In this document: one piece after another, positions 28,261-32,555 of the stretch
Layout of the letters: every line of letters starts with the position of its first letter
How positions within the stretch are numbered: position 1 is the stretch's first letter
Assembly: GCA_029548445.1 (NCBI GenBank)
Contig: JAKPNJ010000003.1
Span: forward strand, 1 to 33,171
Direction of reading: 5' to 3'
Length of the DNA stretch: 33,171 nucleotides
DNA from: Bacillota bacterium
Lineage (GTDB): Bacteria > Bacillota > Clostridia > Saccharofermentanales > UBA5734
Notes under the pieces: model-generated
Database searches by the model: none
The model's input: only the letters and a program-made list of their open reading frames with translations
What the model was told of the DNA's origin: nothing
Program-made: the position numbers and the translations under genes

Positions 28261-28865
28261 AACCGGACGCCGGGGGAGCCGTCGGAATCCGGGTCGGAAG
28301 CCGCCGCCAGACCGTGGCGGTGGGGGAAGCCCTGGCCGCCTGCCTGCGGGCCGGCGATCTCGTGGCCCTGGACGGGGACCTGGGGGCGGGAAAAACCGCC
28401 ATGGCGGAGGGCATCGCCCGGGGCCTGGGCGTACGGGGGCCGGTGGCCAGCCCGACGTTCTCGCTGCTCCACCCCCACCCGGCGGGCCGACCGGGGGGAC
28501 TGGCCCTGTATCATGCCGACGCCTATCGCCTGAACCATCCGGACGAATTCGGGGAAGCGGGGCTGGACGATATCCTGTACCAGGGCGGTGTCACCCTGGT
28601 CGAGTGGGCTTCCCTCCTGGACGGGGTCCTGCCGGCCGACCGGATCCGGGTCGATCTCCTCCAAGTCTGCGACGACGAATTCCGGAGCGGGATGCCGGAC
28701 GAAACCCCGGACAGGACCGGTGAGGAACCCCGGTGGATCCGGATCCGATGGCCCGCCGGCCGGGAGGACGACCGGGAGGTCTTCCTGTCCCGGCTGTCCG
28801 CCCTGCCCGACGGGGCGGACCTGGCCCCGGGCGAGGCCGGGAACGGGGAGAGGGGGACGCCATGA
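28257..28865 (+). CDS. tsaE: tRNA threonylcarbamoyladenosine biosynthesis ATPase TsaE
   Basis: TsaE is the ATPase that cycles the TsaB-TsaD complex in forming t6A at position 37 of ANN-decoding tRNAs. The 202-residue protein has Walker A GDLGAGKT at about 40-47, VASPTFSLLHPH, LYHADAYRLNHPDEF and LVEWASLL, all diagnostic. The usual length is about 150-160; the extra residues form an Asp/Glu/Arg-rich C-terminal tail from about 150 on with no recognised domain. The ATG overlaps the amidohydrolase stop and the gene's own stop overlaps the tsaB-rimI ATG, so translation is probably coupled. Confidence 0.93.
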   Translation: MKPDAGGAVGIRVGSRRQTVAVGEALAACLRAGDLVALDGDLGAGKTAMAEGIARGLGVRGPVASPTFSLLHPHPAGRPGGLALYHADAYRLNHPDEFGEAGLDDILYQGGVTLVEWASLLDGVLPADRIRVDLLQVCDDEFRSGMPDETPDRTGEEPRWIRIRWPAGREDDREVFLSRLSALPDGADLAPGEAGNGERGTP

Positions 28866-30136
28866 TCCTGCTGGCCCTGGATACGTCCACCGATCACCTG
28901 TCCGTAGCCCTGCTCCAGGACGGCCGGGTCCTGGCCGAACAGGCCGGAACAGGGGACCGGAACCATGCCATGACCCTGATGGCGGCCATCCGGGATGTGC
29001 TGGACCGGGCCGGCCTGTCATTAACCCATGTGGATGCCTTCGCCTGCACCACGGGTCCCGGTTCCTACACCGGCATCCGGATCGGGCTGGCCACGGTCAA
29101 GGGCATGGCCTTTCCGCACCGTCGCCCTGCCTGCGGCGTGTCCTCCCTGGAGACGCTGGCGTTCGCCCATCGGCCGGGACGGCCCGGACAACCGATCCTG
29201 GCGGTGATCGAGGCCCGGAACGGCCGGGTGTACGCCGCCGCCTGGCTGGATGGCACCGACGGCCTCGGCCCGGTCCTGCTGCCTCCGGCCAACGAGTCGC
29301 CCGACGGGCTGGCGGACCGGCTGTCGGAGATCCTGTCCAGGATGGCACCCCCGGACGGGCCCCTGGTCCTGTGCGGCCTGTATGGCCCGTCCCTGGCGGA
29401 TCGGATTCGGGAGCGTCTTGTCTGGCCCTCCGAACCCTCATCCGCCCCGGGACCCGTCCCCGGCTGCAGGCCCGGGGTGCTGCCCCTGCCCCCGACCGCG
29501 CCCTCGGCCGCCGTTTGCGGCCTCCTGGCCCATGTTCGCTTCCGGGACCTGCCGGCGGCGGATCGCCCGGTCCTGTTCCCCCCGGACGCCCTGTCCGCCC
29601 TGTACCTGGCCTCGACCCAGCCCCGGCGCCGGGAACCATCCCCTGACGTGTCATTGCGGTCATTCCGTGAAGGCGACCTCCAGGCCCTGGCGGAGCTGGA
29701 GCGCCGCTGTTTCGCCATCCCCTGGAGCCGGGAGGCCCTGGCCGCCACCTTCCTCCACGGGGATGGCCGTGCGACCGTCGCCGTATCGGAAACCGGGGCT
29801 GTTCTCGGCTATATCGGCGTCCGTCCCCTGCCTGACGCCCTGGAGATCCTGAATCTCGCTGTGGCGCCGGAAGTCCGCCGAACCGGCATCGCCAGGCGTC
29901 TCCTGGCCGGGGCCGATGCAGAGGCCGCCACCCTGGGGCGGCCGACGGTCCTTCTGGAGGTCCGCGACGGCAATCTCCCGGCCCGGCAGCTGTACCGATC
30001 CGCCGGATTCCTGGAAACGGGCCGCCGCCGCCGGTATTACGCCGATACGGGGGAAGACGCCATCCTCATGCAGAAGACGCCGGCTTTCCCCCCGAATGCC
30101 CAGGGGGGAGACAGGGCGCAGGGGGGCTGTCATTGA
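28862..30136 (+). CDS. Fusion of TsaB (t6A synthesis) and RimI-type N-acetyltransferase
   Basis: One 424-residue frame joins two proteins usually encoded by adjacent genes. Residues about 1-255 are TsaB, the non-catalytic platform of the t6A complex: ILLALDTSTDHLSVALLQDG, TTGPGSYTGIRIGLATVKG, and the later PPDALSALYLASTQPR. A Pro-rich loop lies at about 188-215. Residues about 262-410 are a GNAT acetyltransferase of the RimI type: LRSFREGDLQALAELE, IPWSREAL, LNLAVAPEVRRTGIARRLL (acetyl-CoA loop) and NLPARQLYRSAGF. RimI acetylates the N terminus of S18. TsaB-RimI fusions are known in several lineages. tsaD is not in the window. The stop lies inside the -35 of the next promoter. Confidence 0.92.
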   Translation: MILLALDTSTDHLSVALLQDGRVLAEQAGTGDRNHAMTLMAAIRDVLDRAGLSLTHVDAFACTTGPGSYTGIRIGLATVKGMAFPHRRPACGVSSLETLAFAHRPGRPGQPILAVIEARNGRVYAAAWLDGTDGLGPVLLPPANESPDGLADRLSEILSRMAPPDGPLVLCGLYGPSLADRIRERLVWPSEPSSAPGPVPGCRPGVLPLPPTAPSAAVCGLLAHVRFRDLPAADRPVLFPPDALSALYLASTQPRRREPSPDVSLRSFREGDLQALAELERRCFAIPWSREALAATFLHGDGRATVAVSETGAVLGYIGVRPLPDALEILNLAVAPEVRRTGIARRLLAGADAEAATLGRPTVLLEVRDGNLPARQLYRSAGFLETGRRRRYYADTGEDAILMQKTPAFPPNAQGGDRAQGGCH

Positions 30137-30162
30137 CAATCCACCGGATCGATCCCTATACT
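30133..30162 (+). promoter_or_regulatory. Promoter of the HPr-like gene
   Basis: A perfect TTGACA (30133-30138, overlapping the TGA of the upstream gene), an 18-base spacer and TATACT (5 of 6) lie about 75 bases before the HPr-like ATG. The match is strong for this GC-rich sequence. Confidence 0.72.
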
Positions 30163-30236
30163 TGATGTCGACGGACGGATCGGCGGAGCGGCCAACGGCG
30201 CCGCAAGCAGGCCACGCGAAGTCGGGAGGTTCTCGG

Positions 30237-30497
30237 ATGGTAACCAGGAAAGTGGTGTTCCACTGCGACGAGTCGCTGCACATGAAGATCGTGGCGATCC
30301 TGATCCAGAAGGCGTCAACATACCGCTCCAGTGTCTGGCTCGGACGGGGAGACCGGCGGGCCAACGCCAAGAGCCTCCTGGGCGTCATGTCCCTGGGACT
30401 CGAACCCATGTGCGACGTCGACGTAACCGTGGAGGGTCCCGACGAGGAGGAGGCCCTCGACGCCATCTGCCGCTACCTCGAGAAACCGGAGACCTGA
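30237..30497 (+). CDS. HPr-family protein with altered His15 motif
   Basis: The 86-residue protein aligns end to end with HPr/Crh without gaps in the key regions. His15 is present in SLHMKIVAILIQKAS, but the usual H-A-R-P-A reads H-M-K-I-V, so the Arg17 that stabilises phospho-His and the following Pro are lost. The regulatory Ser46 region is well kept (NAKSLLGVMSLGL), and the C terminus GPDEEEALDAICRYLE is typical. This suggests a regulatory protein phosphorylated on Ser46 rather than an efficient PTS phosphocarrier; that is inference. The ATG at 30237 is fixed by GGGAGG 7 bases upstream. It has its own promoter and precedes uvrC; the HPr kinase gene is often found near uvrC in Bacillota, but none is within the window. 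Confidence 0.85.
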   Translation: MVTRKVVFHCDESLHMKIVAILIQKASTYRSSVWLGRGDRRANAKSLLGVMSLGLEPMCDVDVTVEGPDEEEALDAICRYLEKPET

Positions 30498-30533: not shown

Positions 30534-32555
30534 ATGAACCCTGAAGCGATGCCCTTCGACGCCCGGCTGGACCTGGTTCCGGAAAAGCCGGGCGTCTACC
30601 TGATGAAAGACGCCGGCGGCACTGTGCTCTACGTGGGCAAGGCGGTGTCGCTGCGCAGCCGGCTCCGCAGCTACTTCGTCCCCAATCCCCGGGTGACGCC
30701 CCGGATCCTGGCCATGATCCAGCGGGTTCGGGACCTGGAGACCCTGGTCTGCGGCACGGAACTGGAAGCCCTGATCCTCGAGTGCAACCTGATCAAGCGA
30801 TACCAGCCCCGCTACAACATCCTGCTTCGGGACGACAAGGAATATCCCTACATCCGCGTGACCCTCAACGAAGCCTATCCCCGGGTACTCAAGGCCTTCC
30901 ACATCGGTCCCGACGCGGCGGAGGGCGCCCGGTACTACGGCCCATACCCCGGCGGAACCCTTCGGGATGCCCTGGAGACCCTCAAGCGGCTTTTTCCAAT
31001 GAAGACCTGCCGCCGGGTCCTGCCCCGGGACATCGGCAAGGAGCGACCCTGCCTCAATTACCACATCGGCCGCTGCCTCGGCCCCTGCCAGGGATCCGTG
31101 TCCCGGGACGCCTACCTGGAATCGATCCATGCCATCTGCCGCTTCCTGGAAGGCCGGACGGCAGGGCTTCGGGAGGACCTGGCCCGGCGCATGCGGGAGG
31201 CGTCCGACGCGATGGCCTACGAGCAGGCGGCCCTGTTCCGGGACCGGCTGGCCTCCCTGGACCGTCTCCTGGAACGGCAATCGGCCGTGACCCGCCGGGA
31301 CCGGGACTGCGACGTGTTTGGCTTCGGCCGGAACGGCGCCGAAGCCTGCCTGATGCGGCTGGAAGTCCGCGAAGGGCGGATCGTGGGCCACGGTGCCTTC
31401 TTTGTGGAGGATGAGGGGTCGGACCCCGGCGACATCGCCGCCGCCCTGCTGGTCCAGTATTACGCCTCTGCGCCCAGGATTCCCCCCGAAATCCTCGTGC
31501 CGGCCCTGCCGGAAGCCCCGGAGGACGCCACCCTGGCTTCCTGGCTGTCCGACCGGGCCGACACCCGGATCCGGATCCGCGTGCCCAGGCGGGGGCCGGA
31601 TACCGACCTGTTGAAGATGGCGGAGAACAACGCCCGGGAAGCCCTGACCCGTCGGACGCTCCTGTCGGGCGGCGAGGGGGCCTCCCGGATGGCGGTCGAG
31701 GAGCTCGGGCGACGGCTGGGTCTCCTGCGGGCACCCGCCCGGATCGAGGCCTACGACATCGCCCATGTGGCCGGCGATTCCCCGGCGGCGTCCATGGTCG
31801 TCTTCCAGGACGGCCGGCCCCTCCGGTCGGGATACAGGACCTTCCGGGTCCGGGAGGCTGGTGCCGGGGACGACCCCGCCTCGATCCACGAAGCCGTGCT
31901 CCGGAGGATCCGGCGGCTGTCCGACCCGGAGTTCGGCCCGGTGCCGGACCTGGTCCTGGTGGACGGCGGACCGGCCCAGGTCCAGGCGGTCCTGAAGGCA
32001 CTGGAGGGGGCCGCCCCGGAAACCGCGGCGTCCGTGGCCGTGGCCGGCATGGTCAAGGATGCCCGGCATCGGACCCGGGGGCTCGTGCTGCCGGATGGCA
32101 GGCTCCTCGACCTGCGACGGGGCGGGAGCCCCGATGCCGAGAAGGCCGGGCCGACCGGGCCAACCGGGCCAACCGGGCCGACCGGGCCAACCGGGCCGAC
32201 CGGGCCGACCGGGCCGACCGGGCCGATGGGGGCGGCCGGAACGGACGAACCGGACGACGGCCTGGACCGGGAGACCCGGCTGCGGCTTCTTCGCCTGGTG
32301 ACCGCCATCCAGGAGGAAGCCCACCGGTTCGCGGGGCGGTATCACAGCCGGCTCCGCACCGCCCGGCATTTGCGCTATTCGCTGGAGGACATTCCCGGGG
32401 TGGGGCCGTCCCGGCGAAAACGTCTCCTCTCCCGTTTCGGCACGTTGAAGGCCCTGTCGGAAGCCCCGCTGGAGGCCATCGCTTCCACGCCGGGCATCCC
32501 CGGACCCGTGGCGGAGCGCATCCACAACCGATTCCACCCGCCAGGGGAGGACTGA
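30534..32555 (+). CDS. uvrC: Excinuclease ABC subunit C with a collagen-like insert
   Basis: UvrC makes both incisions in nucleotide excision repair. The 673-residue protein has the GIY-YIG nuclease (PGVYLMKDAGG, VLYVGKAVSLRSRLRSYF), the four-Cys segment RPCLNYHIGRCLGPC, a UVR motif (AYEQAALFRDRLASL), the RNase H-like nuclease (EAYDIAHVAGDSPAASMVV, LVLVDGGPAQVQ) and C-terminal helix-hairpin-helix motifs (DIPGVGPSRRKRLL, TPGIPGPVAERI). Residues about 539-565 are eight Gly-Pro-Thr triplets and one Gly-Pro-Met, inserted between the RNase H-like domain and the conserved IQEEAHRFAGRYH. Catalytic residues around it are intact. The ATG at 30534 has no clear Shine-Dalgarno; 30549 is an alternative start. 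Confidence 0.95.
   Translation: MNPEAMPFDARLDLVPEKPGVYLMKDAGGTVLYVGKAVSLRSRLRSYFVPNPRVTPRILAMIQRVRDLETLVCGTELEALILECNLIKRYQPRYNILLRDDKEYPYIRVTLNEAYPRVLKAFHIGPDAAEGARYYGPYPGGTLRDALETLKRLFPMKTCRRVLPRDIGKERPCLNYHIGRCLGPCQGSVSRDAYLESIHAICRFLEGRTAGLREDLARRMREASDAMAYEQAALFRDRLASLDRLLERQSAVTRRDRDCDVFGFGRNGAEACLMRLEVREGRIVGHGAFFVEDEGSDPGDIAAALLVQYYASAPRIPPEILVPALPEAPEDATLASWLSDRADTRIRIRVPRRGPDTDLLKMAENNAREALTRRTLLSGGEGASRMAVEELGRRLGLLRAPARIEAYDIAHVAGDSPAASMVVFQDGRPLRSGYRTFRVREAGAGDDPASIHEAVLRRIRRLSDPEFGPVPDLVLVDGGPAQVQAVLKALEGAAPETAASVAVAGMVKDARHRTRGLVLPDGRLLDLRRGGSPDAEKAGPTGPTGPTGPTGPTGPTGPTGPTGPMGAAGTDEPDDGLDRETRLRLLRLVTAIQEEAHRFAGRYHSRLRTARHLRYSLEDIPGVGPSRRKRLLSRFGTLKALSEAPLEAIASTPGIPGPVAERIHNRFHPPGED
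32148..32228 (+). repeat. Nine 9-base tandem repeats inside uvrC
   Basis: Units of GGGCCRACC start every 9 bases from 32148; eight fit (R is A or G) and the ninth ends ATG. They encode the Gly-Pro-Thr collagen-like stretch. A 9-base unit keeps the frame whatever the copy number, so length changes would alter the linker but not disrupt UvrC. Confidence 0.95.

Follow-up and report, generated by a model that had tools for sequence, protein, structure and literature searches.

The window, meaning the whole 33,171-nucleotide stretch of DNA analysed here, carries a gene for an HPr-like protein beside uvrC (Table 1). The fold is that of HPr: PF00381 covers residues 2–82 at 75.6 bits (E 3.3e-21; cut-off 23), TIGR01003 (PTS_HPr_family) matches at 61 bits (cut-off 47.9), and Foldseek aligns the predicted structure to HPr structures with a TM of 0.9. 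The codons and the PF00381 span confirm an earlier note on this DNA, which described an HPr-like protein aligning with HPr over its whole length, with His15, MKIV where HPr has ARPA, and the Ser46 region intact. The HPr active centre is incomplete, with His15 there and Arg17 and Pro18 gone; codons 16–19 read M-K-I-V where canonical HPr has ARPA. The same note listed the Arg and Pro after His15 as lost, and both are absent, but the list was too short: Gly13 is missing as well, replaced by Ser. Canonical HPr proteins from related genomes (n = 26, selected because they carry LHARPA) read G13 L14 H15 A16 R17 P18 A19 without exception.

Table 1. Features of the uvrC-linked HPr-like locus, in window coordinates
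Feature	Position	Strand	Basis
tsaB-rimI fusion, upstream neighbour	28733..30136	+	TIGR03725 and TIGR01575 above cut-off
Sigma-70-type promoter, TTGACA-18-TATACT	30133..30162	+	1 found against 0.1 expected; -35 overlaps the upstream gene's stop codon
GGGAGG, probable ribosome-binding site	30224..30229	+	read from sequence, upstream of the ORF
HPr-like gene	30237..30497	+	86 aa, ATG start; profile matches and order-wide orthologues
Codon 15, CAC (His), drifting position	30279..30281	+	sequence; H in 13/56 orthologues
Codons 16-17, Met-Lys in place of Ala-Arg	30282..30287	+	sequence; MK in 54/56 orthologues
Codon 46, AGC (Ser), predicted HprK target	30372..30374	+	sequence; Ser in 56/56 orthologues
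uvrC, conserved downstream neighbour	30534..32555	+	TIGR00194, 481 bits; linked in 55/56 orthologues

The HPr-like gene and uvrC probably start their own transcription unit. Promoter-like sites lie upstream of 51 of 55 orthologues, against 8.9 expected from shuffles, and their hexamers are conserved while the spacers vary. The upstream neighbour reads TsaB and RimI as a single protein, with TsaE upstream of it. Within the window's uvrC, nine copies of a 9-base repeat (32146–32226) give a collagen-like GPT run near the C-terminal part of UvrC, a run that a pattern scan found in none of the other loci examined.

The window protein belongs to a conserved uvrC-linked family. Members occur in 56 of the 58 genomes of the window's order, and 55 of them immediately precede uvrC in the same orientation; the remaining one is cut by a contig end. 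Chance does not account for the MKIV deviation: 54 orthologues have MK at residues 16-17 (one has TK, one IR), and Pro18 occurs in none of the 56. Gly13 survives in only five, compared with 25 of 25 other HPr proteins. Ser46 is present in all 56, and the surrounding A42-N43-K45-S46-L47-L48-G49 is unchanged across 26 diverse members. Residue 15 is variable, with Q in 31, H in 13, E in five, L in four and P, F and D in one each. Much the same picture emerges from 80 named loci, the best 80 of 301, which overlap with the 58 order genomes and so are not independent: residues 15-17 read QMK in 64, HMK in 11, EMK and AMK in two each and PTK in one, and uvrC linkage holds in 78, the other two having too little room.

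His15 in this family looks like a drifting position rather than a stage between HPr and Crh. On a UvrC protein tree of 77 rows (of 81 possible from the 80 loci and the window, rows with fewer than 300 uvrC residues having been dropped), at least six changes between His and not-His are needed at residue 15. The window's closest rows (L131, L137, L145 and L130) all have Gln15 in the neighbouring HPr-like protein, although the window's own row is a long branch whose exact placement is unsure. Given these repeated switches we reject an evolutionary intermediate en route to Crh; the proposal of "a different intermediate" in the earlier note is not supported, the more so with the family in 56 of 58 genomes. 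That note also contrasted the protein with Crh proteins, which lose His15 and keep Ser46. The Ser46 half of this comparison holds, but the His15 half is blurred, because 43 of the 56 orthologues have lost His15 too. His15 by itself is no marker of a working phosphocarrier.

The window's genome encodes the serine kinase but no detectable phosphotransfer chain. This genome is a 3.03 Mb draft in 359 contigs, 97% complete. It holds one HPr kinase/phosphorylase (TIGR00679, 368.9 bits; cut-off 240) with both its Walker A motif GESGVGKSE and its signature EIRGIGILD intact; the hprK gene adjoins what we take, by reading the sequence, to be murB, rapZ, yvcK and whiA. The enzyme I N-domain (PF05524) had no match, in a search whose control matched in 7 of 14 genomes, nor had PTS_EIIC (PF02378) or EIIA_2 (PF00359), the two families that made up the EII search. 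The check for enzyme I, EII and HPr kinase genes suggested earlier thus came out in favour of HprK only, and with enzyme I, EIIC and EIIA_2 undetected there is no sign of a phosphotransfer chain for the window protein. A suggestion that PTS transfer is weakened was right that phosphocarrier function is impaired, but a transfer that is only weakened is not supported in a genome in which none of these partners was detected. PF00381 matches twice in this genome, to the present gene and to a 75-aa HPr-like protein (L002 1501-1653; C32:9099-9251) that contains DAKSIMGIFSL and lacks the His15 region. Short matches of that type occur in 29 of the 58 order genomes, and this one is a possible second HprK substrate.

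Across the order, canonical HPr tracks enzyme I and the uvrC-linked type does not. Of the 58 genomes, 57 have a PF00381 match, 53 have HprK and 15 have enzyme I, and by set arithmetic on the match lists 37 genomes combine a full-length HPr and HprK with no enzyme I match. The phmmer hits on which the order's family and HPr counts rest include 25 other HPr proteins in 14 genomes, all H15-x-R17, and 13 of those genomes are enzyme I-positive. Two further H15-x-R17 proteins (L067 and L076), absent from those hits, were read individually and added. With them, a separate HPr carrying His15-x-Arg17 is found in 15 of 15 enzyme I-positive genomes, compared with one of 43 enzyme I-negative genomes (G012, 65% complete). 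Some enzyme I-positive genomes hold the uvrC-linked paralogue alongside a working PTS. The enzyme I N-domain profile also found no match in G025, a genome in one contig and 99% complete, and with 43 of 58 genomes lacking a match, we reject assembly gaps as the sole cause of the absence. Twelve of the 23 EIIC-positive order genomes (for example G007, G014 and G056) have no enzyme I match. The earlier claim that Ser46 signalling is kept is borne out at the level of sequence, by Ser46 in every orthologue and HprK in 53 genomes as well as in the window's own.

Structure prediction points to a rebuilt active-centre region. In an AlphaFold2 model of the window protein, helix A spans residues 12–27 (pLDDT 94.8); in a canonical HARPA protein of the same class, modelled as a control, it spans 16–26 (pLDDT 97.2), both predictions coming from 26-row alignments. 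Residue 15 is thus predicted to fall within helix A in the window family and before it in canonical HPr. Searched with the window model, Foldseek recovers HPr and Crh structures and ranks 7ff5, 'Ruminiclostridium cellulolyticum Phosphocarrier', second.

The closest relative with a solved structure is this clostridial protein. 7ff5 is the top phmmer match in the PDB, and its chain is identical over residues 1–81 to the protein of locus L302, whose genome (G189) has HprK, a uvrC-linked HPr-like gene and no enzyme I match. It shares with the window protein the HPr fold, the Ser46 site RANAKSLLG, Lys17, the uvrC linkage, HprK and an enzyme I-less genome, but it differs in having Gly13 and Asp15-Ser16 where the window protein has Ser13 and His15-Met16 (47% identity in the structural match). 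The window protein combines uvrC linkage with Lys17 and the absence of Pro18, as 7ff5-type clostridial proteins do; some 7ff5-like members of other orders retain Pro18 (SKPAA). Among open-licence PMC papers we found none describing 7ff5 and no description of proteins with MK at residues 16-17 and a residue 15 that drifts. Excerpts of a 2013 study describe Ccel_0806 of C. cellulolyticum as a Crh-like protein, in a species that seems to be without an HPr orthologue and cognate EII, and propose LacI-family partners for it from a model (PMC3656788). 7ff5 and Ccel_0806 come from the same species and are not equated here. Given these two precedents, the Crh-like, signalling-only kind is already known, and the MK variant with its drifting residue 15 is a new form of it.

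The window protein also stands apart from both textbook relatives. B. subtilis Crh (2ak7, 1mo1, 1zvv) resembles it in HPr fold, Ser46, HprK as presumed kinase and lack of a PTS role, and phmmer aligns the two at 47.7 bits; unlike Crh, the window protein has His15-MKIV and lies beside uvrC. B. subtilis Crh itself has Gln15 followed by ARPA, and its gene is located by yvcK-whiA. Compared feature by feature, the window protein has the Ser46 and HprK recognition region, and HprK is encoded in its genome; it retains the His15 that Crh and 43 of its own orthologues lack, yvcK-whiA lie beside hprK instead of beside its gene, and its score under the Crh model NF010354 is 61.7 against a cut-off of 123. 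With canonical HPr (ptsH) it shares fold, His15 and Ser46, but it lacks Gly13, Arg17 and Pro18, and its genome lacks enzyme I, EIIC and EIIA_2 matches.

The partner of the phospho-serine form is harder to place. The CcpA model TIGR01481 detects LacI-family proteins broadly, with 24 matches in the window's genome, yet no protein exceeds its cut-off there or in any of the 58 order genomes, so any CcpA-like effector is putative. Excerpts of one paper give Arg304 of CcpA as its main contact to phosphorylated Ser46 (PMC4591507). Of seven of the genome's 24 LacI proteins compared at this position, three have Arg (L122, L124 and L126) and four an acidic residue, and the best CcpA-like protein has Asp. 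Three order genomes (G040, G043 and G051; 92, 97 and 90% complete) encode an HPr-like protein and HprK, yet nothing in them matches the CcpA model.

We consider it likely that the window protein is a Crh-like HPr paralogue devoted to signalling and a substrate of HprK, related to 7ff5. Its role is probably regulatory alone, because its genome has no detectable enzyme I to supply phosphate. HprK would phosphorylate Ser46 while ATP and glycolytic intermediates are abundant and strip the phosphate off again when they fall. The phospho-serine form would then bind an effector and adjust carbon use; analogy suggests a LacI-family regulator. Residue 15, lying within the extended helix A and with enzyme I absent, would no longer carry phosphate. 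Arg17 of HPr contacts its partners, and Lys17 would preserve the positive charge at this position. Several observations count against a purely signalling role: the lack of a CcpA over cut-off, the coexistence of the paralogue with a PTS in some genomes, the draft state of the genome, a helix extension modelled from 26 sequences, and the many class loci described below that retain both His15 and Arg17 in genomes with no enzyme I match.

Might the protein instead be a degraded but working phosphocarrier, phosphorylated on His15 by a missed enzyme I or another PEP-using enzyme and passing the phosphate on weakly? Its retained His15, the 97% completeness of its draft genome and the 12 of 23 EIIC-matching genomes without an enzyme I match all speak for this. 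Against it, 43 of 58 order genomes have no enzyme I match, the single-contig G025 among them; Gly13, Arg17 and Pro18 are all gone; and only 13 of 56 orthologues have His15, so that we judge it improbable. A decaying, functionless remnant of HPr would explain a drifting residue 15 in a genome without a PTS, but this is the least credible reading of all and we reject it: Ser46 is universal, the segment around it is invariant in 26 diverse members, and both promoter and gene position are conserved.

A more serious alternative, though still an unlikely one, is that Ser46 signals to a target unlike CcpA, such as an enzyme of metabolism or a protein encoded in the rapZ-yvcK-whiA cluster that adjoins hprK. 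The three genomes with the switch and no CcpA-model match, the presumed murB, rapZ, yvcK and whiA genes around hprK and the Asp at the Arg304 position of the best CcpA-like protein favour it. These points are offset by the incompleteness of the three genomes, by the Arg in three of the seven LacI proteins compared, and by the LacI-family partners proposed, in the excerpts cited above, for R. cellulolyticum (PMC3656788). More tentatively still than the signalling role itself, we suggest that the order keeps an HprK/HPr-like serine switch without a PTS and, in some members, without a LacI regulator, so that its effector would have to differ from the Bacillus ones. Helix A, rebuilt through the former active centre, could possibly offer a new binding face.

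The combination extends beyond the order. In 196 genomes of the class, the family profile, which picks up canonical HPr as well, matches in 153, enzyme I in 69 and HprK in 157; 81 genomes have a family profile match and HprK but no enzyme I match. We read 90 class loci (sets of 30 and 60), one best hit per genome of the 153, leaving out the weaker 63. Thirty of the 90 carry His15 without Lys17 in genomes with no enzyme I match, so enzyme I loss alone does not explain the decay of the motif. His15 and Arg17 of HPr have a role in partner binding, and the enzyme I-less loci that keep His15 fit such a role. At L232, L243, L267 and similar loci, the HPr next to uvrC is canonical (GLHARPAT), and the genome gives no match to enzyme I. 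At L217, L229 and L227 (G140, G166 and G232), the HPr-like gene lying directly upstream of the enzyme I gene encodes Glu or Gly as residue 15 (GLESKPAA or GLGAKPAA), an odd pairing of enzyme I with an HPr unable to accept its phosphate; G140 and G166 encode a separate GLHARPAA protein in a stretch with hprK.

Excerpts of a 2008 survey of 222 genomes report only a few species that possess HPr but not enzyme I (PMC2405797). As 81 of 196 class genomes pair HprK with such an HPr and give no match to enzyme I, PTS-less carbon signalling may be common in Clostridia. If our reading is true, the two jobs of HPr are cleanly separated here, with the serine switch outliving the phosphocarrier role. It also raises a testable question: what does phospho-serine HPr bind where no CcpA is evident?
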